Source: Acidimicrobiaceae bacterium (GTDB lineage Bacteria; Actinomycetota; Acidimicrobiia; Acidimicrobiales; RAAP-2). From it: a stretch of DNA of 61,806 nucleotides. Of this stretch, positions 40,103 through 53,867 are shown in pieces (position 1 is the stretch's first letter; each line of letters starts with the position of its first letter). Position numbers and translations under genes: made by a program. The stretch spans positions 19,669 to 81,474 of the forward strand of contig PKYQ01000016.1 of the NCBI GenBank assembly GCA_003133685.1, given 5' to 3'. The notes under the pieces are model-generated. The model did no database searches. It was not told the origin of the DNA and saw nothing but the letters and a program-made list of their open reading frames with translations.

Positions 40103-40131
40103 ATTTTAGAGCGCGCAGGCGAGCGTCATGT
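40103..40131 (-). promoter_or_regulatory. Candidate leaderless promoter of the DUF2342 gene
   Basis: Minus-strand ATGACG (40131-40126), 17 bases, TAAAAT (40108-40103), then exactly 6 bases to the ATG at 40096. The -10 box overlaps the TAA stop of the upstream gene. No Shine-Dalgarno sequence is present. Confidence 0.45.
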
Positions 40132-41182
40132 CGGTGTGGTGAACGGTGGTGTTGCGCACGAACGTGACGTGGGCCACGCTGAAGGCCGGTGTCAGGTACA
40201 GCGCGGTGTCGAGGGCGTCGAAGGTCTCGGTCGCCCTGCCGTTCAACGCCGTGATGACGTCGCCCTTCTTCAGCTGCCACTGCGCTGGGCTTTTGGGAAT
40301 GACACGAGAGACCGTCACGCCGCCGCCTTGCGCGGTCAAACCGACGATGCCGAGGCTCGCGTGACAGCCGCGACCGGTCGCGACGATGTAGGCGATGCGC
40401 GCGACGAACTGGGCCGAGTACCAGCGGTGGTCCGTGGAGAGAACCGCGACGACCTGGCCGCCCTGATTGACGGCAATGGCGTCGACGAAGCTATTGAGAT
40501 TGGCGTCGGATTTCGTCGAGAGATAACTGATGACGCCGGTCGCGTCGCTCTCGGGATCGCCGAGAATCGTGTTCGCCCACGCGTACTGCGGCGGCTTCGT
40601 CGAACTGTTCAAGATGGGCGACACCGCGACGACCCATTTGCTCGCGGGCAACGGCGCGAAGCTCAATGCGCGAATGTGGCGACCGAGGCGCACGATCGAA
40701 AAGCCCATCACCTGGTCACGTCCGACCCAGTGCACGGGAAAGTTGACGTCATCCGGCGTCGAACCGGTGATGAGCGCGTTGGAAGGTATCTGCGTGGTGG
40801 TGACGGCGAGATTGTGGGGCAGCACCATGGCGGCGACGACGTCGACGTGGCCCGGCGTCGAGATCGAGAGGTCTACCGTCTCGGCCGCGGCTGTTCGAGA
40901 GTTCGACGGAAGTTGGTTGAGCGATTGGGCCAGGTGCGGCGTCGCGGGGGGATCACTCGATTGTGTGAGGTACAAACCGGCCGATCCGACAACCAGCGCG
41001 ACCGCCATGAGAGCGGCCACGGCGCGGGCCGCGGGCGACTTAATCGGCCAGATCTGATGGGTCCGGAGCTTCTCGAAACTCGGCAATTCACTCGGGTGAA
41101 CCCACTCGCGCTCGCCCGTCGGCGGCGGCTTTGCGTGCGCGCGTCGACGACGCCACCAATCCGCTCGTCCCCGACTCTCCAC
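40106..41182 (-). CDS. Membrane-anchored trypsin-fold/PDZ protein without catalytic triad
   Basis: 358 residues: a basic cytosolic N terminus (about 1-48), one transmembrane helix (AARAVAALMAVALVVGSAGLYL), a long extracellular part and a C-terminal PDZ domain (GIVGLTAQGGGVTVSRVIPKSPAQW, then KKGDVITALNGRATETFDALD). Length and layout are those of HtrA/DegP-like proteases. The trypsin part keeps strand-like blocks (HNLAVTTTQIP, VVAVSPILN) but I find no GNSGGP serine motif; its place reads AVNQGGQVVAVLST, with no Ser. The catalytic His is also not evident. Probably a non-enzymatic binding protein. TAGCCT ends 7 bases before the GTG. Confidence 0.65.
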   Translation of the reverse strand: MESRGRADWWRRRRAHAKPPPTGEREWVHPSELPSFEKLRTHQIWPIKSPAARAVAALMAVALVVGSAGLYLTQSSDPPATPHLAQSLNQLPSNSRTAAAETVDLSISTPGHVDVVAAMVLPHNLAVTTTQIPSNALITGSTPDDVNFPVHWVGRDQVMGFSIVRLGRHIRALSFAPLPASKWVVAVSPILNSSTKPPQYAWANTILGDPESDATGVISYLSTKSDANLNSFVDAIAVNQGGQVVAVLSTDHRWYSAQFVARIAYIVATGRGCHASLGIVGLTAQGGGVTVSRVIPKSPAQWQLKKGDVITALNGRATETFDALDTALYLTPAFSVAHVTFVRNTTVHHTDMTLACAL

Positions 41183-41239: not shown

Positions 41240-42244
41240 ATGGCATTAGACGTCGCGCTCGACATCGGCACCTCGAACACGCGTCTCGCCACCACTGATC
41301 GAGGAATCGTTTTTGACGAACCGACGATGGTCGCGATCGATACCAACTCCGGGCGCGTCATCGAGCTCGGCCACGGTGCGCTCGACATGGTCGCGCGCAC
41401 CCCGCGCCACGTGGTCGTCTTTCGACCACTCGCCCAAGGAGCCACGGTCGACTTTGACGTGACTTCACGCCTCATCGCCGGCCTGTTTGACCGAGCCGGT
41501 GTCTCGAAGATGAGTCGGGCCCGCGTTGTCATGAGCGTGCCCTCGCTGGCGACGTCGATCGAGCGACGGGCCCTGCGTCAGGCGGCTATCCAAGCGGGCG
41601 CGCGCGAGGCGACGTTGATCGAAGCGCCCATCGCGGCGGCGATCGGAATGGGACTACCGGTTCAGGACCCGATCGGTTCGGCCGTGACGGTGCTCGGTGC
41701 CGGAGCGAGCGAGGCCGCGATCATCTCACTCGGTGGCATCGTCACGGGCAGTGCTCGACGACTGGGCGGCAACGACCTCGACGCCGCGATCGCGACGTCA
41801 CTTCGGATTCAACTCGGCGTCGTCGTCGCGCCGGCGGTGATCGAAAGCTTGAAGTTCGCTCTCGCTTCCGCGCTCGGACGAACGAAGGGCCGTTCGGAAG
41901 TCGTGCTGGCACGAACAGTCGACCGTGGTGACCTCGTCGAGATTGACGTCGACGCCGATCTCGTGAACGCGGCCGTCTTAGAGGTCGTCACGACCACGGT
42001 GCGCATGATTCAAGAGTGTCTCGGGGACGCGCCGCCGGACCTTTCCCAAGACGTCAGTGCTCGAGGACTGACGTTGGCGGGAGCTCACGCGCAGTTGAGT
42101 GATTTCGCCGAACTCATAGCCACGCACACCGGCGTCGCGGTCTCCGTCGCCGAGGAGCCGAACACGGTCGTCATTCGTGGACTTCGACTCTGTCTCGAAG
42201 AGATGTCCTCGCTGCACTCGCTCTATCGTGACGCCGATCGTTAA
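41240..42244 (+). CDS. mreB: MreB-like actin-family protein
   Basis: 334 residues with the actin-fold nucleotide motifs: phosphate 1 ALDIGTSNTRLATT, the RARVVMSVPSLATSIERRALRQAA stretch and EAPIAAAIGMGLPV of MreB, phosphate 2 VTVLGAGASEAAIISLGGIV, and adenosine motif LTLAGAHAQLSDFAELI. MreB directs lateral wall synthesis in rods. The protein is a little short, deviates in phosphate 2 (usually D-I-G-G), and there is no mreC, mreD or rodA next to it, so it may be an MreB paralogue with another role. Overlaps the converging HEAT-repeat gene by 4 bases. Confidence 0.8.
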   Translation: MALDVALDIGTSNTRLATTDRGIVFDEPTMVAIDTNSGRVIELGHGALDMVARTPRHVVVFRPLAQGATVDFDVTSRLIAGLFDRAGVSKMSRARVVMSVPSLATSIERRALRQAAIQAGAREATLIEAPIAAAIGMGLPVQDPIGSAVTVLGAGASEAAIISLGGIVTGSARRLGGNDLDAAIATSLRIQLGVVVAPAVIESLKFALASALGRTKGRSEVVLARTVDRGDLVEIDVDADLVNAAVLEVVTTTVRMIQECLGDAPPDLSQDVSARGLTLAGAHAQLSDFAELIATHTGVAVSVAEEPNTVVIRGLRLCLEEMSSLHSLYRDADR

Positions 42245-42873
42245 TCGTCGTCACGACCGAGTTGGTTGACGGCCGCTCGAACCTGCCAGTCACGATCTTC
42301 GCTCGCGCGCGCGAGTGCTTCGTCGATGTCGGGTCCCTCGAAGTTCGACAGTGCGACGATGGCACGTCGTCGCACTGGTGGTTTGTCATCGAGCGCGCCA
42401 AGGATCGCCGGACGAGCCCGGTCGTCACCAATGGCACCAAGCGCCGCGATTGCGGATTCGCGACACCGCGCGTCCTCGTGACTCGTCGCAATGACGCACA
42501 GCTTCTCGACGGCCCCAACGAAGAGGTGCTCACCGAGCGCGAAGACGGCACCGTCAACGACGAGCGCGTCGTCATCATCGAGACAGCGCAGCAGCGCTTC
42601 GAAGATGTGCTCGTCGTCCAATTCCGCGTGAGCGATCTGATTCAATGCCTCACGTCGAACGTCGACGTCCACGTCGCTCAGGGCGCGCAGCCAGTCATCG
42701 GGGGTGACGAGGTTCTGGCGAACCATTCCACGAAGCGCCAGGATCCGATGTCGAGGGATCGGGCTTTGCGTGTTGGCGCGCAGGACATTGGCAAAGTCGT
42801 CACCTAATGCGAAGCCGGCCCGCAATAGTGATTCGTCAATGCTCTCCGCTAGCGTTGATTCATCACCTTGCAT
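42241..42873 (-). CDS. HEAT-repeat protein
   Basis: 210 residues composed of repeated helical pairs: HRILALRGMVRQN, DVDVRREALNQIAH, DALVVDGAVFALGEHL, DARCRESAIAALGAIGDD, PPVRRRAIVALSNFEG and DRDWQVRAAVNQLGRDD. The motif V/CRRxAIxALxxI repeated about every 31-33 residues is that of PBS-lyase/HEAT repeats. Such proteins are scaffolds for protein binding. Cytosolic. Its start overlaps the start of the divergent PDZ-Lon gene, so the two cannot have ordinary separate promoters in between. Confidence 0.82.
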   Translation of the reverse strand: MQGDESTLAESIDESLLRAGFALGDDFANVLRANTQSPIPRHRILALRGMVRQNLVTPDDWLRALSDVDVDVRREALNQIAHAELDDEHIFEALLRCLDDDDALVVDGAVFALGEHLFVGAVEKLCVIATSHEDARCRESAIAALGAIGDDRARPAILGALDDKPPVRRRAIVALSNFEGPDIDEALARASEDRDWQVRAAVNQLGRDDD

Positions 42874-43995
42874 GAACCCATCTCACCACCTGACAAGCGG
42901 CGTCGGAGATCAATCGCGATTCTCGTCGTTCTCGTACTGATCCTCGCGGCCATTGTCACGCTGGACAAGTGGCCCATCAACGAGTACGCCATAACCCCGG
43001 GCGACGCGACGCCGGTGGCGCCGCTGGTGAAGATCATGGGAGTGGCCAGCGAAACGCACCCGGGCAAGATCATGCTCACCGACGTCTATCTTTCGTCGTT
43101 GAACCGGTGGCAGTGGTTGATCATGCACTTCGAGCGACACGTCCAATTCGTCTCCTCGAACGAACTCGTCGACCCGGGCGTGCCGACCGACGAACTCCAA
43201 GCCCAGGGTTATTTGGAGATGAGTGACTCGAAGCAGGCCGCCCAAGTCGCCGCATTTGACGCGCTCGGTTGGAAGACGCCCGCGACGGCGACGGGGGCGA
43301 TCGTGAACTCGGTCGTCGCGCCGTCGCCCGCGCGCAGCGCCGGCATTCGGGTCGCCGACGAGATCGTCGGCGTGAATGGCACGAGCGTTGGTTCGGCCTG
43401 TTCTCTCATCGCCGCGATGCATTCGATTGCGGCCGGTTCCTCGGTCCATCTGTCCATCAAGCGCGCGCGGATTTCAAAAAAAGGTGCGATCTCGTATCGG
43501 AAGGCTTCGACCGTTACTCTCAAGAGCGCGAAGCCCCCGCAGGGCATTGGATCCGCGGGCTGTGCGGGGGTGAGCGGCGCCGGATCGTCGTATCTCGGTG
43601 TTGCGATTGAAGACGGCAACTCGTACCGGTTGCCCGCGCAGGTCAGTATTAATACCGCGAACATCGGGGGACCGTCAGCGGGGCTCGCGATGACGCTCAC
43701 GTTGATCGACAAAATGAGCCGCCAGTCCATCTCCGGAAACCAACCGATCGCCGCGACCGGCACGATTGACGTCTTTGGCAACGTGGGCGACGTCGGCGGC
43801 GTCGCCGAGAAAACTGTCGCGGTCCAGCGCGCGGGCGCGAGATACTTCTTCGTTCCCCAGGTCGAAGTCGCCACGGCCAAAGCGGCCGCACAACCGGGCC
43901 TCAAAATCATCGGCGTGACGACCCTGGCCCAGGCGTTGCGCGACCTTCGAGCACTCGGCGGAGCCGCCCCGCAACCACTTACGCCGCCCCATTAA
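42868..43995 (+). CDS. Membrane-anchored PDZ and Lon-type S16 protease (YlbL-like)
   Basis: 375 residues: short basic N terminus, one helix (SIAILVVLVLILAAIVTL), a first domain, PDZ (AIVNSVVAPSPARSAGIRVADEIVGVNG, about 145-175), and a C-terminal S16 Lon protease domain. The catalytic dyad is present: Ser in NIGGPSAGLAMTLTL and Lys in NVGDVGGVAEKTVAVQRAGA. YlbL in Bacillus and Rv3194c-like proteins share this layout. TTG at 42868 is the only usable start; the ATG at 42872 is out of frame. The promoter must lie in the HEAT gene or upstream. Confidence 0.85.
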   Translation: MHEPISPPDKRRRRSIAILVVLVLILAAIVTLDKWPINEYAITPGDATPVAPLVKIMGVASETHPGKIMLTDVYLSSLNRWQWLIMHFERHVQFVSSNELVDPGVPTDELQAQGYLEMSDSKQAAQVAAFDALGWKTPATATGAIVNSVVAPSPARSAGIRVADEIVGVNGTSVGSACSLIAAMHSIAAGSSVHLSIKRARISKKGAISYRKASTVTLKSAKPPQGIGSAGCAGVSGAGSSYLGVAIEDGNSYRLPAQVSINTANIGGPSAGLAMTLTLIDKMSRQSISGNQPIAATGTIDVFGNVGDVGGVAEKTVAVQRAGARYFFVPQVEVATAKAAAQPGLKIIGVTTLAQALRDLRALGGAAPQPLTPPH

Positions 43996-44033: not shown

Positions 44034-45722
44034 ATGGACGATCGCCGAATTCTCTCAAGCACGCGCCAATCGTCAGCTGAGATTGCCCGAATGAACTTCA
44101 CCACCTTGAGAAAAGGTGGCTACGACCCCAACGAGGTTCGAATCCAGTTGGAGTCGATTGCGCGCGAAATGGGCCACCTCGAGGCTCGAATTCGCGAGCT
44201 CCAGGATCAGTTGAGCGAGGCCCAGCGCCGGGCCGCCAATCCGACATTCGACGAAGCCACGCTCGCCGGCGCCCTGGGAGCCCAGAGCGCGGCGATCTTG
44301 CGCTCGGCCCACGAAGAGGCCGGACGAGTGACCGCCGAGGCGCAAGAACGAAGCACCCAGGTCTTCACCGAGAGCCAACAGCGCAGTTCGGCCCATCTCA
44401 TCGAAGCCCAGGAGCGGGCCGCGGCACTGATCGCCGAGGCTGAGAGCACGGCCGGTCAGATCGACCACGACGCGCGTCTGGCCGCGGAGCGACTGGTGGA
44501 GTCGGCCAAGGTGAACGGCGAAGCACTCGTCGAAGGAGCTCGCGAACAGGGCCGCGCGATCGTCGAACAGTCCTACGACGCTCGCAAGGCGGTTCTGAAC
44601 GACCTCGCGGTGAAGCGCAAGGCGTTGCAGATCCAGATCGAACAGTTGCGCGCCGCGCGTGACGTCTTAGCCACGTTCGTCACGTCAGTACAAGATCAGG
44701 TCGAGGGAGTGCTCTCGGGAATCAACAACTCCGACGAAGTCGCTCGCAACGCGGCCCTCGAAGCCCTGCGACTTCGACCGAACGTGCCCGAGCCAACCGA
44801 AGAGGAAGTCCTCGCGGGTACACCGCTGCGCCAGGTCGCCGAACCGCAGCTACAAGAGGTCACCGAGACGTCGAGCGAGGCGAGACCACGGGCGCGCCGG
44901 GCGCCCAAAGAAGAGGTCGCGGTCGTTGCCGACGTGACGGAAGTCTCGATGATCGACGACGATGGTTCGGGCACCGACGTCGTGAATGAGATCTTCGCGC
45001 GCCTTCGAAAGGCGACGCTCGAGGAGCGTGGTGCGGCTCCGGTGCCGAAGAGGGCGGCGCCCGCGGCGCCCAAGGCAGTCACCGCGACCGGCGAACTGTT
45101 CGAACGTCGCGACGCGGCGCTCGCCGAGTCCCTCGCGGCGCTGACGCGAAAGGTGAAGCGCGCCCTGCAAGACGACCAGAACATCATGCTCGAACGCCTG
45201 CGCGACGTGAAAGCCATGATCACGACGGAGCTCGAAGACGAACACGAGCAGCGCTCGCGCTACGCCGACGCCGCGATCGACGCCCTCTCGGACGCCGCCG
45301 CCGCCGGTGTGCAGTTCGCGAAGGACGAGGCCGGTGTCAGTGGGGGCGAGGTTGAGAGTGCGGCGTTGAAGGACTGCGCCGCCGACCTGGCCGTGACGAT
45401 CGTGTTGGCGCTGCGAAAGAGAATCCTCACCGACGGCAGTGGCGACGGCCCCGACCGAGCGAACGCCGCCTACAAGGAGTGGCGCGGGGCGCGTGTCGAA
45501 CGACTGTGCACCGACGCGGCGCGTCGGGCCTTCGAGATCGGCGTGGTGGCAGCGTCACAGGGCCGCCACGTCCGATTCTTCGTCGCGCCAAATGACGCGC
45601 CGTGCGACGCCTGCGCAATGGATGCGGCGTCGGGAGAACGGCCCGCCGGTCAGAACTTCCCGAGCGGCTCGGCCTTCCCACCGCTGCACGCCGGTTGCGC
45701 CTGCGCCGTTATTCCAGTTTGA
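44034..45722 (+). CDS. DivIVA-domain coiled-coil protein with phage-head-type Cys/His C terminus
   Basis: 562 residues. Residues about 14-60 match the DivIVA lipid-binding start (EIARMNFTTLRKGGYDPNEVRIQLESI). Residues 60-250 form a long Ala/Glu/Arg coiled coil. A charged linker follows (to about 370), then a helical domain. The last 40 residues contain C524-x-x-C527, then PPLH552-AG-C555-A-C557-AVIPV, which closely resembles the zinc-like CxxC...PPLHxxCxC end of Mu gpF/SPP1 gp7 head-morphogenesis proteins. The RAFEIGVVAASQGRHVRFFVAPNDAPC lead-in also resembles that domain. Function inferred: polar or septal scaffold; the C terminus is unexplained. TAGTCT ends 7 bases before the ATG. Confidence 0.75.
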   Translation: MDDRRILSSTRQSSAEIARMNFTTLRKGGYDPNEVRIQLESIAREMGHLEARIRELQDQLSEAQRRAANPTFDEATLAGALGAQSAAILRSAHEEAGRVTAEAQERSTQVFTESQQRSSAHLIEAQERAAALIAEAESTAGQIDHDARLAAERLVESAKVNGEALVEGAREQGRAIVEQSYDARKAVLNDLAVKRKALQIQIEQLRAARDVLATFVTSVQDQVEGVLSGINNSDEVARNAALEALRLRPNVPEPTEEEVLAGTPLRQVAEPQLQEVTETSSEARPRARRAPKEEVAVVADVTEVSMIDDDGSGTDVVNEIFARLRKATLEERGAAPVPKRAAPAAPKAVTATGELFERRDAALAESLAALTRKVKRALQDDQNIMLERLRDVKAMITTELEDEHEQRSRYADAAIDALSDAAAAGVQFAKDEAGVSGGEVESAALKDCAADLAVTIVLALRKRILTDGSGDGPDRANAAYKEWRGARVERLCTDAARRAFEIGVVAASQGRHVRFFVAPNDAPCDACAMDAASGERPAGQNFPSGSAFPPLHAGCACAVIPV

Positions 45723-45743: not shown

Positions 45744-48644
45744 GTGCGTAGTCCGACTGATATCCCGCCACGGGCGAGACGGCTTGGTCGGTTCTCTCGA
45801 AGATTCTGGTTCGGCCTCGCCTTCGTCGTCATCCTCATCGGATTCTTATCGCTGCGCAATCTTGCGGTCCTCTGGACCGACCAAATGTGGTTCTCCTCGG
45901 TCGGCCTCGGCAAGGTCTTCTCGACGCTCCTGATGGTGAAGGTCGGGCTCGGCCTGACCTTCGGCGCCATTTTCTTCTTCATCATGTGGGGCAATCTGCT
46001 CCTTACGGACCGTTTCGGGGCGCGCGACCTCTCCTTTGACCCCGAGGACGAGATCGTTCGACGGTTCCAGAACGTGGTTCGCCCGTACGCCAAGCGCATT
46101 TACGCGGCGATCGCGCTCGTCATGGGTCTGATCGCCGGACTGAACGCCACCGGCCAGTGGAACAAGTACTTGCTCTTCGCCAACAGTCAGCCCTTCCACG
46201 TCAAGGACGGGCTCTTCCATAAGGATCTGAGTTTCTACGTCTTCACGTTGCCTTTCGTGTCCTTCGTCGTGACCTGGCTCTTGGTGTCACTCATCATCGC
46301 CTTGATCGTCACAACCGGATTTCACTACCTGAACGGCGGGATACGCGCGACGAGGGTGACGCCGAGGGTCTCGCCACGAGTGAAGGCGCACCTCTCACTC
46401 ATCGGCGCCGGCATCGCGCTCATGAAAGCGGTGGGCTATGTCATCGCTAAATGGGAGTTAGTCAATTCGAACAACGGCTTCGTGTCGGGCGCCGGTTACA
46501 CCGACGTTCACGCGCGGATGCCCGCCCTGACGATTCTGTTCTTCCTCTCGATGGCGGCGGCGCTGATCCTGCTCGCGAACGTTCGCATGCGCGGATGGTC
46601 GTTGCCGGCCGTTGCCGTTGGACTGTGGCTCTTCGTGGCGATCGTGATCGGTGTGCTGTATCCGACGATCTTGCAGGCCCTCAAAGTCAGTCCCAACCAG
46701 GACTCGCTCGAGGCGCCGTATATCCAGCGCAACATCGAAGCGACGCGCGCCGCCTTCGGACTTGACAAGGTGCAGTACTCCAACTTCGCGGGCTCGACGA
46801 CTATCTCGAAGTCCACCATCACTGCTGATACGGCAACGCTCAACAACATTCGACTATGGGACCCGGCGTCCAACATCGCGCTCGCGACGGTGACTCGTCG
46901 CCAATCGATTCACGCGTACTACACGTTCTCGACGCTCGGCGTGGACCGCTATTTCATCAACGGCAAGCTCACGCCGGTCTTGATTGGCGCGCGTCAACTC
47001 AACACTGCGAACCTGCCCTCGCAGTCCTGGGTCAACCAGCACCTGCAGTACACGCACGGTATTGGTGCCGCGGTCTTGCCGGCGAACGCCGTTGACTACA
47101 CCACGGGCAATCCCAACTTCGTCGTTTCGAACGTCCCGCCGCAGTCCACGAATGGCATGCCGGTACTCACCCAGCCGGACATCTACTTCGGCATCCACGA
47201 CCCCGGTTGGGTCGTCGCCGATACGAAGCAGCCCGAACTTGACTACCAGGTGAACTCAGGCAAGAACGCCGGTCAACCGGTGGAGACCCACTACGCCAGC
47301 ACCGGTGGTGTGCCGGTCGGCAGCATCTTCAGCCGTATGGCTTTGGCGCTACGACTCGGCGACTTCAACTTCCTGATCTCGAATCAGATCAACTCCAAGA
47401 GCCGCGTTCTTTTCGTGCGCGACGTCCAGCAAATGGCCCAGAAGGCCGCGCCGTTCCTCACCTTCGACTCCAACCCTTACGCCGTGATCGCCAACGGCAA
47501 CGTGCAGTACGTCCTCGACGGCTACACCACGACCGATCAGTACCCCTACAGCGAAAACGCATCGAACCTCAACGTCAACCAGGGCGGACTGCCCGGCAGC
47601 TTCAATTACGTTCGCAACGCCGTCAAGGTCGTCGTCAACGCCTACACCGGCGCGATGACGTTCTACGCGAATAACCCGAACGACCCGATCTTGAAGGCGT
47701 ACCGTGCCGCTTTCCCCACGATGTTTCACCCCATGAGCCAGATGCCCGAGGCGATTCGCACGCACCTGCGCTACCCCGCGAACATCTTCTCGATCCAGGC
47801 GGCCACCCTCGCCAAGTACCACATCTCGACGGCCAGCGCCTTCTTCGCGGCGTCGGACCGTTGGGAGATCTCACCGTCCACCGGGTCGGGTTCCCCGGCG
47901 CAGTCACTGGCGCTCACGACCGTGACCAACAACGCGGGCAATGTCGTCTCGACGGCGCTCGCGCCCATGAATCCGACGTACCAGGTCGGATCCCTGCCCG
48001 AGGCGAACCACCAACAGCTCCTCGAGAACATCGCCTTCGTGCCGGCCGGAAATTCGGCGACCGTCCAGAGCCTCACGGCGTTCATGGTGGCGACCAGTGA
48101 TCCCTCGGACTACGGTCAGATCCACGTGTACATCACGCCACGCGGCCAGTCCGTGACCGGACCGGTGCAGGCCGACTCCGAGATTCAGCAGAATTCCGCC
48201 ACATCCAGAGAGATCACCTTGCTAAACACCAGCGGCGGCGGCTCAAGCGTGCTGCTCGGCAACAACATCATGGTGCCGTTGGACCAGAGCGTGCTCTATA
48301 TTCGCCCGCTCTACCTGACGAGTACGTCGAACCCGCTGCCGCAGTTGAAATTCGTCATCGCGGTCTTCAACCAAGACGTAGCCATCGAGCCGACGCTTTC
48401 CCAGGCGCTTTCCTCGGTCTTCGGCGGAAACTTCTCGGGCGGCAGCACTCCTCCCCCAAAGACCGGAAGCGGCGGCTCCACGAAGGCCGGTCAAGCCGCC
48501 ACGGTCTATCTCAAACAAGCGGCGGCGGACTACACGCAGGGCCAAAAGGATCTGACCAATGGCAATCTCGGCGCGTATCAGAATGAGTTCAATGCCATGA
48601 ACGCTCAGTTGGCGTTGGCCCAGGCGGCCCTGGCCAAGAAGTAG
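45744..48644 (+). CDS. UPF0182-family membrane protein
   Basis: 966 residues: seven hydrophobic helices in the first about 320, then a large extracytoplasmic domain with LGLDKVQYSNF-like, YTHGIGAAVLPANAVDYTTGNP, GIHDPGWVVADTKQPELDY and TDQYPYSENASNLN blocks, all typical of UPF0182. A Ser/Gly-rich linker precedes a C-terminal helical segment rich in Ala and Gln. UPF0182 is widespread in actinobacteria, often next to ylbL-like genes as here; function unknown, likely envelope-related. TAGGCT (45732-45737) ends 6 bases before the GTG. Confidence 0.9.
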   Translation: MRSPTDIPPRARRLGRFSRRFWFGLAFVVILIGFLSLRNLAVLWTDQMWFSSVGLGKVFSTLLMVKVGLGLTFGAIFFFIMWGNLLLTDRFGARDLSFDPEDEIVRRFQNVVRPYAKRIYAAIALVMGLIAGLNATGQWNKYLLFANSQPFHVKDGLFHKDLSFYVFTLPFVSFVVTWLLVSLIIALIVTTGFHYLNGGIRATRVTPRVSPRVKAHLSLIGAGIALMKAVGYVIAKWELVNSNNGFVSGAGYTDVHARMPALTILFFLSMAAALILLANVRMRGWSLPAVAVGLWLFVAIVIGVLYPTILQALKVSPNQDSLEAPYIQRNIEATRAAFGLDKVQYSNFAGSTTISKSTITADTATLNNIRLWDPASNIALATVTRRQSIHAYYTFSTLGVDRYFINGKLTPVLIGARQLNTANLPSQSWVNQHLQYTHGIGAAVLPANAVDYTTGNPNFVVSNVPPQSTNGMPVLTQPDIYFGIHDPGWVVADTKQPELDYQVNSGKNAGQPVETHYASTGGVPVGSIFSRMALALRLGDFNFLISNQINSKSRVLFVRDVQQMAQKAAPFLTFDSNPYAVIANGNVQYVLDGYTTTDQYPYSENASNLNVNQGGLPGSFNYVRNAVKVVVNAYTGAMTFYANNPNDPILKAYRAAFPTMFHPMSQMPEAIRTHLRYPANIFSIQAATLAKYHISTASAFFAASDRWEISPSTGSGSPAQSLALTTVTNNAGNVVSTALAPMNPTYQVGSLPEANHQQLLENIAFVPAGNSATVQSLTAFMVATSDPSDYGQIHVYITPRGQSVTGPVQADSEIQQNSATSREITLLNTSGGGSSVLLGNNIMVPLDQSVLYIRPLYLTSTSNPLPQLKFVIAVFNQDVAIEPTLSQALSSVFGGNFSGGSTPPPKTGSGGSTKAGQAATVYLKQAAADYTQGQKDLTNGNLGAYQNEFNAMNAQLALAQAALAKK

Positions 48645-49059: not shown

Positions 49060-49136
<77 letters not shown>

Positions 49137-49155
49137 AGTAGTACATAAACGAAGT

Positions 49156-49190
49156 CGAAGGCCCGGGGAAATCCTGGGCCTTCGTTCTGT
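49156..49190 (+). terminator. Hairpin after tRNA-Met
   Basis: CGAAGGCCC (49156-49164) pairs perfectly with GGGCCTTCG (49176-49184), 11-base loop, followed by the modestly T-rich TTCTGT. Probable terminator of the tRNA gene. Confidence 0.6.
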
Positions 49191-49247
49191 TCGGGTGGCC
49201 CTCCGCAGGTGCGCCCGCACCCCTTATTCCATAAACCCCTTTGCAAC

Positions 49248-49321
49248 TGCACGTGCTGCACACGTGCACTCCCCAACGGATTCATCCTTCTCAGACGCGT
49301 GGCGTGTGCACGGGCCGTGCA
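49248..49321. repeat. Cluster of TGCAC/GTGCA palindromes
   Basis: Within 74 bases are the palindrome GCACGTGC (49249-49256), a second CACGTG (49261-49266) running into GTGCAC, and the hairpin TGCACGG-G-CCGTGCA (49307-49321). The words TGCAC/GTGCA occur at least five times. They lie upstream of the helix-turn-helix remnant at 49406 and may be its operator or part of an element origin. Confidence 0.4.
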
Positions 49322-49405
49322 TCCGGCGCTTTGAAGCATCAATGGAGTCTGATAAATGCTTCGATCGACAGGTCCAAAGGAGGCCCGCACGGTCACTCCG
49401 ACCCC

Positions 49406-49649
49406 ATGACGGAGTTGTCCACGATGCACGAACCCACCTGTCTCGCCCAAGACCAGGCGGCTGCCGCATGCGGCAGGTCCAAGGACATCATCCGGCGCTA
49501 GCAGCAAGCGCCACTTGCTTAACTCACGCCAGTGACCCGATGACACTGTCGAGGTCTCCGTTAGCGACCTCGTTGTGGCTCGTCAGGAGCTCGAAGTAGT
49601 CGAGTCTCGCCACGATGCAGTGCGCACCGCGCTCCAGTGGGCCGATTGA
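49406..49649 (+). pseudogene. Frameshifted helix-turn-helix protein of a mobile element
   Basis: Fragment 1 (49406-49501) reads AQDQAAAACGRSKDIIRR then stops; fragment 2 (49536-49649, another frame) reads DTVEVSVSDLVVARQELEVV and then SRHDAVRTALQWAD. Together they match small DNA-binding proteins of actinobacterial plasmids and integrative elements: an AAxxxGRSKDTIRR recognition segment, a D-x-x-x-VxVSDLVxA strand, then a coiled coil. Two stops and a frame change separate them, so the gene is dead. AGGAGG occurs upstream (49378 region) but 20 bases from the ATG. Confidence 0.5.
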
Positions 49650-49947
49650 GAGCGACTTGGTAAGGGTAGAGCCGAATGGGTCGAGTGGACGAGGAGGATG
49701 CCGGGTTATCCCGCTCATCCGCGACCGACTGCGTAAGGATGGCATCGAAACAGTGTCCTGCTGAATGGTTGAACGGGTGTTTGGTGAATTTCATTCTTCC
49801 TGACTTAGGTACCGTTTCCGCAGATGGCAGCCGGTCAGAAGGCTAGTTTCGCGGTCAATCGAGGCTAGGACCGCACGCGCGGATATGGCGTGATAAATTC
49901 CGCTGCAACGCACGTTCGAGATCCAAACGGCGACCGAAGGAACTTCC

Positions 49948-50523
49948 ATGAATAGGCCCATTAGCGCATTGCTTTCCTTGTGTCTCCTGACGAGTGCGGT
50001 CGCCGTCTTCGATGCGGGAGTGTCTGGCGCATCGAACCAGCCACACGCGCTGGTTGCAGCCTGCTCTATGGACCACAGCACGGCCCAGATTTGCCCAGTT
50101 CAGTTCACGGCAAGGGCTGGGAGATCTCAGATGCTGACAGTCGCGACGTACGAGGATTTATCGAACTGCAACTTTGCACCTCCAAGTTCCTATCCCGGAC
50201 TTAACGGGCAGTACACCGTCGCCAAGGTTTCGATTAACTGGGGAGATGGTTCGGCCGTCACGGGAGGCGTCGCGCACGTCGGAACAACGTGCGCCGGGAC
50301 GAGCGCGACCAGCGAGACGGGCCAGATCGAGAAGATCACGGGCGTGCACCGCTACCGCCGCGCCGGCATATTCCACCTCAAAGTCTCGATCATCTGGGTT
50401 CGCGGCGCGGGGAACACCTACCAGAACTGCGCAAGCGTGACGGGCGGCACGGTGCGCAACCTCCTCTCGAACTGTATTGCCTTCAACGCTCCTGTAGGGT
50501 CCGTAGGAGTCGTGAGGCGCTGA
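49948..50523 (+). CDS. Small secreted protein, PKD-like
   Basis: 191 residues. A signal peptide (SALLSLCLLTSAVAVFDAG, cleavage near VSGAS) is followed by a domain with VAKVSINWGDGSAVTGG and GVHRYRRAGIFHLKVSIIW. WGDGS...H-x-Y-x-x-AG-x-F-x-L-x-V is the PKD-domain pattern, a beta-sandwich adhesion module. Cysteines CSMDH, ICPVQ, NCNF, TCAG, NCAS, NCIAF could form three disulfides. AAGGA six bases before the ATG supports the start. It is the only apparently intact gene between the first two tRNA-derived repeats. Confidence 0.65.
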   Translation: MNRPISALLSLCLLTSAVAVFDAGVSGASNQPHALVAACSMDHSTAQICPVQFTARAGRSQMLTVATYEDLSNCNFAPPSSYPGLNGQYTVAKVSINWGDGSAVTGGVAHVGTTCAGTSATSETGQIEKITGVHRYRRAGIFHLKVSIIWVRGAGNTYQNCASVTGGTVRNLLSNCIAFNAPVGSVGVVRR

Positions 50524-50969
50524 GTTCAGCTTTCGAATCCAATTGCCAACTGCGTTTAGGCGGAACACAGAGGTGGAGGCTCCAAGGTGCGGCGGCGGCG
50601 ATGAATATGGTCTGGTATTAGCCTAGAGTTCCCAACGCCTGCCACCGTGGAGTTCCTCTGGTTTGGTGGAGGATGTGGTTGCAATTGGCACCGGACGATC
50701 CACCGAGCGATCACGTACAGAACGAGGTGGAAACTCCTCTAGCCCGGAGTGCCATGAGTGAATTTCGGGGTTTTTAGGTTTTACACTTCTTTTGTACCCG
50801 TGAGTGGTGCGAGCCGTAAGGCGAGAGCGGTACAGCACGTGCGCTGCGATGAGATTTGTTGAGCGTGATGATTTGATCAATGTGGCTAGATTTCAAGCAA
50901 AGTGGCGTAGCAACCGATTCGTGAGTGAGTCGTAGATCGACTATGAGAAGGGCAGCGGCAAAAGCATCT
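50524..50969. other. Gene-free stretch in the element remnant
   Basis: 446 bases, visibly AT-richer than the core genes, with T-rich runs around 50765-50795. Short open frames exist on both strands but none has a recognisable domain or a good start. No hairpin terminator was seen. It may contain decayed coding sequence. Confidence 0.5.
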
Positions 50970-51018
50970 GTCGGGCTCATAACCCGAAGGTCGCAAGTTC
51001 AAATCTTGCCCCCGCCAC
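50970..51018 (+). repeat. tRNA-derived direct repeat, copy 2 (3' part only)
   Basis: Identical over 49 bases to 49086-49134, but the sequence upstream is unrelated, so no acceptor or D arm exists, and the CCA is altered to CGA. This is how an attR site looks. It is immediately followed by a long hairpin. Confidence 0.85.
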
Positions 51019-51025
51019 GAAGAGA

Positions 51026-51067
51026 AGCGCAGAAAAACCGGTGCGACAGCACCGGCTTTTCTGCGCT
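51026..51067 (+). terminator. Long hairpin after repeat copy 2
   Basis: AGCGCAGAAAA (51026-51036) pairs with TTTTCTGCGCT (51057-51067), and CCGGTGC (51038-51044) with GCACCGG (51049-51055); one A-C mismatch and a GACA tetraloop. The internal A and T runs make it a possible bidirectional terminator. The sequence after it (GGTCACGTTTTGGGTCACG) resembles that after copy 3. Confidence 0.6.
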
Positions 51068-51373
51068 AAGTCTGGCCTCGGTCACGTTTTGGGTCACGGT
51101 GATGGTTGTACGCCCATACCGGGCTCTTGCGGTATTTGCGGGTGAGCGTCTCGTTGCTTGTCATTGCACGACGATCGAGTCGGGCAGGCTGAAGTTGGGT
51201 TTGCCGGCGTAACGCAGGTCAAAGGTTCTCGAAGTCGGCGAACCGGCTCCTCAGATTTCTTCGGACTACATCAATCGCACTGGTTACAGTTCGCCCGACA
51301 TTAGATACCGGCGACATGGAAGTGTGTGCGGAAGTTTTTTGGAGGTGAGGGCCAGTTGACGTCGTAGTCGAAC
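51068..51373. other. Non-coding stretch before the diguanylate cyclase
   Basis: 306 bases with no convincing gene. The first 25 bases contain two GTCAC words resembling the sequence after the third tRNA copy. A minus-strand frame with RYAGKPNFSLPDSIVVQ then stop could be a gene tail, but I cannot assign it. Confidence 0.4.
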
Positions 51374-51406
51374 GCCCATGAGAAGTGCAATAATGACCTC
51401 ATGGGC
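51374..51406. promoter_or_regulatory. Perfect 9-bp inverted repeat upstream of the GGDEF gene
   Basis: GCCCATGAG (51374-51382) and CTCATGGGC (51398-51406) flank 15 bases containing AATAAT (51389-51394), a possible -10 box. It lies 78 bases before the GTG of the diguanylate cyclase gene, a good position for an operator covering a promoter. Confidence 0.4.
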
Positions 51407-51483
51407 ATCAACCCTGGTAAAGATCGACAGTTCGGCGGCTGTTTCTTGCGCTTTGACCCAGTACGCGGCAGTACCTGACGTCC

Positions 51484-53043
51484 GTGGAACGTCAGGTGGA
51501 GGACGACGCGATTGGGCGGATCGATGCTCTGGTTTCGTTAGCTCGCAGCGCTCGCGAGGACAATGTCGATGAAGTTCTTCGTACGGTCGTCGAAACAGTC
51601 CACTCGGCTGCGGGCTTTGAAATTGTGGTATTCAACAAGTACCAACCCGGGTGGGACGACTATGAGGTCGTGTTGGTGATCGGACCACCGGATGCGCAAG
51701 CGCTCATGCACACCAGGGAAAGTCGCGAGATGTTTGAAGAGCAACTGGTGAGTAGTCAGTATGAAATACACCCAGGGATTTACTTTGTTCCGAGATCAGC
51801 CGAGGTGTGGAGCAATCTTGATAACTACGTGATTCCATCTCCGAATCGACGCACTATTCCAGGTGGATGGGATTCGGAGGACGCGCTTTTCGTCCAACTC
51901 CGCAATTCAAAGGGCGAGCCACTCGGGATCTTGTCGATCGACGAACCACGATCGGGCAAAATGCCGGACTCGAGTGAACTCCGCATGTTGCGCGCAATCT
52001 GTTCGCACGCCGAACAGTCGCTCGAGAATGCCCAAGACAGCGCTCAAGCCGAGCGAGTTCAAAACCGAATGACGCAACTCCTTGGAGCGTCGAAGCGTTT
52101 ATCCGAATGCCAATCTCACCGTGAGGTTCTTGTTACTGCGTGTGAAGCGCTGGTTCCACGTCTCGGTTTTGAACGCGCGGCTATCTATTTTGGGGACGGG
52201 GATAGCTCACTACCGCTCGCGATAGCGAACTTCGACGAGGTAGCGATCGCTAAAACGCTTGAGCTCCCGGTCTTCGAACTATTTCGTGATCACACTCGTG
52301 AAGTGGGAGGCTGTTGGTTGGTACCCGCGCAAACCGTTCACGGATCAGCGGACAGTGAGTTTCGGTCGAGACGCAATGGAGCTGGGAGATTTGGTTGGTC
52401 CGATGACGTTCTGCTCGCGCCTGTATTCGACGGAGATGGTGTGCCTCGACTGGTCTTCGCGATAGAGGACCCGATCGATCATCTTCGACCCACAGAAATT
52501 GAACGCGAACTCGTCCGGCTGTTGATCGAACAGACAGACGCCGCACTTGAACGAGTAACGTTTCGAACTCGCCTTGAACATCTTGCTGATCATGATTCGT
52601 CGACGGGACTGCTCAATCGTCGAGCTCTCAGTAGCATCCCGCGCGAAGGACCGGCAACGGCAGCTCTGATGATTTGCGATCTTGATCACTTCAAAGCTGT
52701 GAACGACACGTACGGTCACGAAGTCGGAGATGCCGTTATCTGTCGTTTTGCCGATCTTCTTAGGTCGCTATCGCGAGAGCAAGATTTCGCGGTTCGTTTG
52801 GGGGGCGACGAGTTCATGATGTTTTTGCCGGGGACAAACTTACAGCAGGCCCAATCGGTGGCTGAAAGACTGCGTGTCGCGATGTCTCCGTTGATGTCCC
52901 CACTGGTGTCTTCGGAAGTCACTGTGTCGATCGGGCTCACGCAGATTGATCCAAGTGAACACCTCACCGACGCAATGCGTCGCGCTGATAGCGCACTCTA
53001 CGCGGCGAAGAAGAACGGGCGCAATCAAATCGCATCCAACTAA
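51484..53043 (+). CDS. Diguanylate cyclase with two GAF domains
   Basis: 519 residues, no membrane helix, so a cytosolic sensor enzyme making cyclic di-GMP from GTP. Residues about 10-175 and 195-355 form two GAF-like domains (FEIVVFNKYQPGWDDYEVVLV; LVPRLGFERAAIYFGDGDSS). The cyclase domain begins HDSSTGLLNRRAL (about 375) and contains LGGDEFMMFLPG with GGDEF at 440-444. An inhibitory I site R431-E-Q-D434 precedes it by five residues, so product inhibition is expected. DLDHFKAVNDTYGHEVGD is intact. Start GTG 51484 has no clear ribosome-binding site. It lies alone between two tRNA-derived repeats. Confidence 0.9.
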   Translation: MERQVEDDAIGRIDALVSLARSAREDNVDEVLRTVVETVHSAAGFEIVVFNKYQPGWDDYEVVLVIGPPDAQALMHTRESREMFEEQLVSSQYEIHPGIYFVPRSAEVWSNLDNYVIPSPNRRTIPGGWDSEDALFVQLRNSKGEPLGILSIDEPRSGKMPDSSELRMLRAICSHAEQSLENAQDSAQAERVQNRMTQLLGASKRLSECQSHREVLVTACEALVPRLGFERAAIYFGDGDSSLPLAIANFDEVAIAKTLELPVFELFRDHTREVGGCWLVPAQTVHGSADSEFRSRRNGAGRFGWSDDVLLAPVFDGDGVPRLVFAIEDPIDHLRPTEIERELVRLLIEQTDAALERVTFRTRLEHLADHDSSTGLLNRRALSSIPREGPATAALMICDLDHFKAVNDTYGHEVGDAVICRFADLLRSLSREQDFAVRLGGDEFMMFLPGTNLQQAQSVAERLRVAMSPLMSPLVSSEVTVSIGLTQIDPSEHLTDAMRRADSALYAAKKNGRNQIASN

Positions 53044-53137
53044 AACTCGGAGCAGACCAATTTTCCTCAATCCGCTGCGTCAAATGTGAAACGTTAAGTG
53101 GCGTGGGAGCCGTTAGGGATTCGATGGCGCCAGCTGG

Positions 53138-53587
53138 CTAAGGCAAAATATGCAGCGGTGACAAGACCCATACTGAGCTCCGTAATCCACACAGCACTAA
53201 ATTGCGGAAGGCGACTGACAGCCGCAGCGGCAAGAGGTTTGGAACAGATTGTTCCAGTTTTCCCTCCCGCCGGGGTGTCAATCCAAGATTTACAAACTCG
53301 GGCGAACGGCTGAGACCTCCAATAGATTGTGCCCCAAAAAGAATCGCCCTCGTTCTTCCAAACTTGTGCGAGTAAACCAAATCCGACGGGATCGCCGCGA
53401 TGTTCCTTACGCGCGCAATGGGTTCGTTTCGATCTGTGCCCAAGTGATTACGGAAGCGGCCCACCGTAAAAACTTCGTCGCCGATACCAGTTCCTTCGCG
53501 GATGATTGCCTCGTCTGTCGCCACTCCCGTTGCGAGTCCCCAAGCGCCGTAGTCATTTCCAAGAGAGCGGTCCAGGGTCCAGGTCAT
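53138..53587 (-). pseudogene. Remnant of a trypsin-like peptidase gene
   Basis: A minus-strand frame reads GDEVFTVGRFRNHLGTDRNE followed by ARVRNIAAIP and later AQSIGGLSRSPEFVN. This matches a trypsin-like peptidase family in which GDEVFxVGRFxxHxGxxRNxPxVRFGNI is followed by an SxxGxSGSPVFV serine motif; here the Gly after the serine is Arg. The frame continues upstream (WPDPVELIH) into sequence without a start or the His/Asp half, and the end looks random. Probably a truncated, inactive gene next to the tRNA repeat. Confidence 0.5.
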
Positions 53588-53748
53588 GTGGATCAGTTCA
53601 ACGGGGTCCGGCCACCATGGCAAAACCCTTGCACGGTCGTTGCACCCGTTTTGCACGATTGGTTTTGACCGAGAGTGAAAAGTGGGGGCATTCAGACGGA
53701 TCGGTAAGTTCAATGCGGCGTCGTTCGGCGCCTTATGATTGCAACTTT

Positions 53749-53777
53749 TTGGGGGAAACAAACGGGTGTGGTATAGC
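53749..53777 (+). promoter_or_regulatory. Possible promoter of tRNA-Met copy 3
   Basis: TTGGGG (53749-53754), 17 bases, TATAGC (53772-53777), 13 bases before the tRNA. The spacing is ideal and both hexamers are partly consensus. Confidence 0.35.
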
Positions 53778-53790
53778 GACTGTCCATCAT

Positions 53791-53867
53791 CGCGGGGTGG
53801 AGCAGTCTGGTAGTTGGTCGGGCTCATAACCCGAAGGTCGCAAGTTCAAATCTTGCCCCCGTCACCA
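53791..53867 (+). tRNA. Second tRNA-Met (CAT) copy, slightly decayed
   Basis: 77 bases, nearly identical to 49060-49136. Differences: D-stem 3' strand GTTG instead of GCTC (a G-G mismatch at 10-25 and a G-U at 12-23), and acceptor position 71 T instead of C (G-U at 2-71). Anticodon stem with three G-C pairs, CAT anticodon, T arm and CCA are intact. Could still be functional, or a relic duplicated by an element. Confidence 0.75.
53817..53865 (+). repeat. tRNA-derived direct repeat, copy 3 (in second tRNA)
   Basis: Differs from copies 1 and 2 at one base (GCCAC to GTCAC, near the end). Copies 2 and 3 share similar downstream sequence (AGAAG-GCAGA..., a hairpin, and GGTCAC-GTTTGG-TCACG), unlike copy 1. 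Confidence 0.8.

Follow-up and report, generated by a model that had tools for sequence, protein, structure and literature searches.

A DivIVA-type scaffold protein with a phage MuF-superfamily domain in a housekeeping locus of Acidimicrobiia

One gene in a 61,806-nucleotide stretch of an Acidimicrobiaceae bacterium genome (referred to here as the window) encodes a protein in which a DivIVA-type N terminus is joined, through a long helix and a linker, to a C-terminal domain whose homology to the phage MuF/SPP1-gp7 family is supported by profile and fold comparisons. In phages, MuF-type domains normally work at the head's DNA gate. We class the fusion as a DivIVA-type scaffold with a MuF-superfamily domain rather than among phage minor head proteins, and our preferred reading (with a probability of roughly 0.6) is that a cellular DivIVA paralog gained a MuF domain from a phage and has retained it as a head for interactions. 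Each half belongs to a known family; in the portion of the literature covered by our search there was no report of a lasting union of the two in a housekeeping locus, nor any description of a DivIVA-Phage_Mu_F fusion (most subscription papers lay outside the scope of the search). A study of motifs in DivIVA, GpsB, Scy and FilP includes Acidimicrobiales DivIVA and contains neither the word 'phage' nor the word 'fusion' (PMC9858780). According to Jamet et al., what the MuF domain does is unknown (PMC5576092), and Iyer et al. describe it as a phage-head domain fused to effectors that are likely to be delivered (PMC5512222).

Architecture of the fusion protein

The gene (44034-45722, + strand) is an open reading frame (ORF) that starts with ATG and is translated into 562 amino acids; its boundaries were confirmed, and its product matches both the DivIVA family of Pfam and phrog_2662. 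The DivIVA match covers residues 14-120 (44073-44393, + strand; PF05103, 2.9e-7 in a whole-protein scan) and passes the gathering score of the family with 30.9 bits against a cut-off of 28, bearing out the DivIVA-like N terminus proposed in an earlier note on this DNA. In the full-length AlphaFold model (mean pLDDT 78.4, with a pTM of 0.42, at which the relative placement of the parts means little), helices span residues 14-18, 32-68 and 74-247, and a folded C-terminal domain begins at about residue 351. The longest helix (44253-44774, + strand; ten-residue pLDDT means of 64-96) corresponds to the long coiled coil of the earlier note; the helix is indeed predicted, and the coiled-coil state is a presumption drawn from that helix prediction. 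A mostly disordered linker follows (residues 248-350, 44775-45083, + strand; low pLDDT), and then the MuF-like domain (residues 354-562, 45093-45719, + strand), which is defined by profile, hhalign and fold matches. The presumed metal ligands lie near its end, as a first pair, C524-x2-C527 (45603-45614, + strand), and a second cluster, H552-x2-C555-x-C557 (45687-45704, + strand), with all five residues at the positions that had been read from the sequence.

The home genome contains a separate canonical DivIVA (238 amino acids, near SepF, FtsZ and FtsQ), and the fusion gene is therefore, as judged from sequence, a DivIVA paralog. The fusion protein shares with actinobacterial DivIVA/Wag31 an N terminus with GYD and the long helix, but it scores 36.4 bits against the 260-bit cut-off of the Wag31 equivalog (NF050102), is encoded at a separate locus and has the extra linker and MuF head.

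Similarity of the C-terminal domain to phage MuF proteins

Assignment of the end of the protein to the MuF type, made earlier for about the last 100 residues, holds for a domain twice that size (approximately 209 amino acids): the helices that precede the metal lobe also align, so that the profile similarity extends beyond the cysteines, and no different known zinc-binding domain emerged. All 23 aligned relatives from the home order match phrog_2662, a portal family with a MuF tail (best 7.8e-15), and the row of the window protein does so at 3e-6 over profile positions 489-708; this alignment (A1) takes 23 rows from 28 proteins and omits L099, L106, L115, L116 and L117, in which the C-terminal domain is missing, cut off or incomplete. 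Comparison with the Pfam profile Phage_Mu_F (PF04233), which had been proposed as a check, gave a divided result. It is matched by 13 of the 23 relatives (best 3.5e-5, these being E-values that do not imply passing of Pfam's own cut-off), and the window protein itself gave nothing at E<=1 in a search of the home genome. The sole Pfam match of the window C terminus is to VG15 (PF25310) and is weak (E 0.01-0.14); it reaches 16.5 bits against a cut-off of 26, and the family is matched by one of the 23 members. A tblastn search of phages found no match for the window MuF domain and three weak matches for its relative L098, which are annotated as capsid maturation protease or portal. The MuF identity thus rests on relatives and profiles, the window domain alone being hard to place.

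Profile-profile alignment with hhalign gave E values of 3e-19 over 130 columns against phage set A3 and 1.3e-11 against phage set A2. The phage-only profile built from A3 (eight rows, five of them viral-contig sequences first found by the chromosomal family's own profile, and hence not wholly independent) was run against 12,187 six-frame ORFs of the loci; at E<=1 it matched 188 of the 200 chromosomal members, together with 23 viral-contig ORFs and no others, eight other ORFs falling between E 1.3 and 9.5. The A2 profile, with five rows that exclude those viral-contig sequences and include two from the weak search with L098, was weaker, matching 76 of 200 members and one other ORF (E 0.029) at the same threshold.

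Structure prediction of the domain, also proposed earlier, produced a confident model (pLDDT 94.1, pTM 0.91), with 43 matches to viral models at E<=0.001 and TM scores on the query of up to 0.72. Head-morphogenesis, minor-capsid and portal proteins rank best; of the 50 matches listed, those that carry a name are called head morphogenesis, minor capsid, capsid maturation or portal, apart from one 'Uncharacterized', and many are unnamed. Against solved structures, the best E in a profile search was 0.066, Foldseek with the domain model returned none at E<=0.001, and VIA-align found for the most part helical bundles of a generic kind, a single Z exceeding 8.

The order of domains in phrog_2662 recurs in a protein of Brevundimonas phage Strzyga, in which Phage_portal is followed by Phage_Mu_F. 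Two ORFs on viral contigs have other layouts: one (L125:2-1534, + strand) combines a NUDIX domain with a MuF-like C terminus, and another (L132:1340-3025, + strand) combines MuF with an ADP-ribosyltransferase domain, a known type of phage MuF-effector arrangement. The MuF polymorphic toxins of temperate phages have the MuF domain in common with the fusion protein, but they carry a toxin domain after it (PMC5576092), whereas the fusion protein ends five residues past C557.

The metal lobe

We surveyed the lobe in 158 of the 200 rows, having set aside duplicates, rows whose sequence has X close to its end and rows with a domain score below 25 bits. It is present in 150 of these non-redundant members; none of the 150 has lost the C-x-C pair or both of the first two cysteines, and 145 keep the histidine. 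The ligand pattern is CCHCC in 119 members, CAHCC in 15 and some other form in 16, a distribution that fits a metal site with four ligands and one to spare, and on these residues the lobe would be a zinc- or other metal-binding element. Several phage rows of the alignment also have the CxxC...HxxCxC pattern; phage Mu itself is without the CxxC and the histidine there.

The remaining eight rows (L115, L117, L203-L206, L208 and L222) are without the lobe and keep at least part of the MuF helices, with frameshifts in draft genomes being a possible cause; such members are still recognized by the family profile. Because it is absent from these eight of 158 rows, the metal lobe appears not to be always needed, and the lobe-less variants, taken together with variants that have no DivIVA half (described below), indicate that the helical MuF core is the most constant part.

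Genomic neighborhood

The fusion gene lies among genes of a housekeeping kind. As the earlier note had it, an MreB-like and a YlbL-like gene are close by. The first belongs to the MreB/Mbl family (41240-42244, + strand; PF06723, 9.9e-79) and the second encodes a YlbL/SepM-like protease with PDZ and Lon(S16), or LonC, domains (42868-43995, + strand), ending 38 nucleotides upstream of the fusion gene; between them is a HEAT-repeat gene (42241-42873, - strand), assigned by Pfam, which recurs at other loci. A UPF0182 gene (45744-48644, + strand; PF03699, 3.5e-244) begins 21 nucleotides downstream. Across 63 loci, one per genome, UPF0182 is downstream on the same strand in 61, YlbL is upstream on the same strand in 47 and the MreB-like gene is on the same strand in 26 (four further loci, L099, L106, L116 and L207, have no ORF that reaches the MuF profile at 1e-4 and are not counted). 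The gap between the fusion gene and UPF0182, taken as its longest ORF, is 1067 nucleotides in one locus and below 260 nucleotides, or an overlap, in the other 60. When 30 loci were fetched by UPF0182 instead, none matched the fusion profile and YlbL was within the examined flank in only four, and we do not claim a general YlbL-UPF0182 pair. In Bacillus subtilis, YlbL contributes to the removal of YneA, an inhibitor of division (PMC6051672); by analogy, the presence of its relative here points to division or envelope control.

Phage genes were not found in these surroundings. No portal or terminase gene is beside the fusion gene, its neighbors being those for the YlbL-like, UPF0182, MreB-like and HEAT-repeat proteins, and ten further window proteins at 26-61 kb include no member of a phage family, all being metabolic or regulatory by Pfam. 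In this the fusion gene differs from those for phage minor head proteins and, more generally, for MuF proteins (PF04233, SPP1 gp7, Mu gpF, phrog_2662); it resembles the latter in its helical domain with a C-terminal Cys/His lobe, and in profile and fold, but the chromosomal form is fused to DivIVA and sits in a housekeeping locus.

A histidine kinase of HAMP-PAS-HisKA type is encoded within 5.5 kb upstream in 16 of the 63 loci, inside and outside the home class, and in 13 of the 63 a presumed secreted protein or lipoprotein gene (identified by eye, with no Pfam match) lies between the kinase and the fusion gene; the two genes are perhaps part of an ancestral cluster. At the window locus the YlbL gene is directly upstream of the fusion gene, with neither of the two between. 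The kinase and then the presumed secreted/lipoprotein gene adjoin the DivIVA-MuF gene at L101:7143-10876 (- strand) and L195:1098-5131 (+ strand), and in L101 both sit between it and YlbL. Elsewhere in the window, a PDZ-domain protein (40106-41182, - strand; HtrA-like by eye, PDZ only by Pfam) adjoins the MreB-like gene, and three tRNA genes, one of them weak (32.8 bits, 50951-51017), lie in 49060-53864.

Distribution, inheritance and selection

The same fusion occurs widely in other Acidimicrobiia, in which 99 of 148 genomes, representing 68 of 81 genera, have a single match to the MuF profile. The other 49 genomes gave no match; of 20 that were listed, 12 belong to a single genus whose genomes measure about 1 Mb. 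The family is present in 55 of 396 genomes of a phylum-wide sample, 18 of which are outside the class; in one other actinobacterial class, 16 of 66 genomes have it. Close relatives come mostly from Acidimicrobiaceae, Acidimicrobiales and actinobacterial metagenome bins, with a few bins labeled Acidobacteria or Saccharibacteria. Of 61 relatives, 59 match, in some genomes by the N- or the C-terminal part alone.

Among the 200 chromosomal ORFs that match the MuF profile (a redundant set), 189 have a DivIVA-type N terminus. The remaining 11 include several contig-end fragments or broken frames, and one gene (L188/L189) that belongs to the family and has no N-terminal profile match. Three MuF-only members (L209, L210 and L212; 324-337 amino acids) have no DivIVA half and keep the synteny, with YlbL 12-24 nucleotides upstream, and because of them we suggest that targeting to the pole is not always needed. 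In genome G047 (locus L116) there is, conversely, a DivIVA-type gene without a MuF head.

In eight comparisons, the DivIVA part and coil had a dN/dS of 0.03-0.11 and the linker one of 0.08-0.26 (the highest of the four regions each time), with 0.028-0.138 for the MuF helices and 0.060-0.132 for the metal lobe; dS was high in several comparisons (up to 1.73), which makes these ratios rough. A quick tree (131 columns with many unresolved forks, class rows thinned from 70 to 30, and rows without the C-x-C end omitted) placed the chromosomal rows apart from all phage rows except the NUDIX-bearing L125, which fell among them; a tree with all 48 chromosomal rows forced into one clade was not rejected (p-AU 0.567). 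These results are consistent with a single origin of the chromosomal fusion, most simply once, early, in one part of Actinomycetota. The earlier suggestion that the phage domain has been domesticated agrees with this class-wide, syntenic inheritance under purifying selection, and the sequence evidence supports a domesticated MuF domain in a gene that is not a prophage remnant.

A conserved motif in the linker

Within the otherwise variable linker, most members from the class carry a V-D-x-L-F-A-R-L-R-like peptide. In the window protein it reads DVVNEIFARLR (residues 315-325, 44976-45008, + strand) and lies inside an isolated predicted helix (residues 314-331); F321 and R325 are almost invariant. 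Of 80 class linkers, a set without duplicates or linkers shorter than 60 amino acids, 58 contain a strict form of the motif, as compared with a fraction of 0.00025 of shuffled linkers and five of 11,987 other ORFs. A looser form survives in three members without DivIVA (as an LFARIR-type peptide) and is absent from 14 listed members outside the class, two of which are fragments without the linker. Mimicry of the FtsZ tail by LFARLR was considered and dropped, because that tail (DDDLPSFLR) resembles it too loosely.

Proposed function and alternative explanations

In the reading that we prefer, the DivIVA part and the long helix would self-assemble on inwardly curved membrane, whether polar or septal. 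The flexible linker, which includes the conserved LFARLR helix, would extend into the cytoplasm, and there the acidic, helical, metal-capped MuF domain would dock a protein partner in the way that its phage counterpart attaches to the oligomeric portal. Membrane targeting and a 'polar' placement are expected by analogy with DivIVA, whose placement on curved membrane has been described (PMC8872289, PMC4255298). Docking is likewise suggested by analogy: SPP1 gp7 is brought to the procapsid by strong binding to the portal protein gp6 (PMC6316719), which together with the acidic character of the head makes the docking of a protein partner the best-supported role. Because the gene is co-directed with YlbL and UPF0182, the partner would probably come from envelope synthesis or division control.

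The MuF head might instead bind chromosomal DNA or nucleoprotein and anchor it at DivIVA sites; in other actinobacteria, DivIVA anchors origins through ParB. We regard a DNA tether of this kind as unlikely. The title of Stiege et al. 2003 calls SPP1 gp7 a DNA-binding protein, and DivIVA is described as a polar scaffold for oriC localization in many Gram-positive bacteria (PMC8872289), but the MuF domain is acidic in all 23 aligned members (pI 4.6-6.0, net charge -3 to -14), which favors protein docking over DNA binding and would make direct binding improbable, with binding through another protein being possible.

Slightly less likely again is an adaptor for envelope stress, in which the head would take a signal from the sensor histidine kinase of the cluster and alter DivIVA-directed wall growth. 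The kinase and the presumed secreted/lipoprotein gene recur upstream, as given above, but neither was found at the other loci among the 63, and in the window just 38 nucleotides separate YlbL from the fusion gene.

A more specific form of docking can be imagined, and we offer it as a long shot. A portal-docking domain, captured once in an early actinobacterium, would now be a core cell-cycle part, the DivIVA-borne MuF head docking on a ring-shaped septal or polar machine, such as a DNA translocase of FtsK/SpoIIIE type, and the LFARLR helix serving as a second docking site. The FtsK/SpoIIIE-type translocase is the cell's closest analog of the portal-motor. If this were true, a phage DNA-gate adaptor would have found a second use in the DNA or envelope traffic of the cell itself.

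Three further explanations are poorly supported. An anti-phage decoy, by which the head would mimic MuF, capture the portals of infecting phages at the membrane and poison head assembly, draws on the fold of portal-associated phage proteins and on the portal-MuF contact documented for SPP1 (PMC6316719), but single-copy, class-wide inheritance at one syntenic place under purifying selection is unlike a defense gene in an arms race, and we think it quite improbable. Convergence, in which a helical domain of other descent bearing a CxxC/HxxCxC metal lobe has come to resemble MuF, is very improbable: short metal motifs do arise repeatedly by chance, the window protein falls short of detection by Pfam and no solved structure backs the fold, but phrog_2662 is matched across the domain in 23 of 23 relatives, and the hhalign scores and viral fold matches agree with it. 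Least probable of all is a prophage remnant or a functionless accidental fusion, for although 96% of MuF genes in bacterial genomes are reported to lie in prophages or remnants (Jamet et al., PMC5576092), the absence of phage proteins among the ten scanned, the class-wide conservation and the low dN/dS speak against it.

Significance

On the preferred reading, of a cellular DivIVA paralog that gained a phage MuF domain as an interaction head, the fusion would show that a part of the phage head has been domesticated into a DivIVA-type scaffold. Most of the sampled genera of the class would possess a housekeeping MuF domain, whereas MuF has been reported as almost always borne by prophages. The natural variants without the membrane anchor or without the metal lobe may help to reveal the role of the MuF fold.
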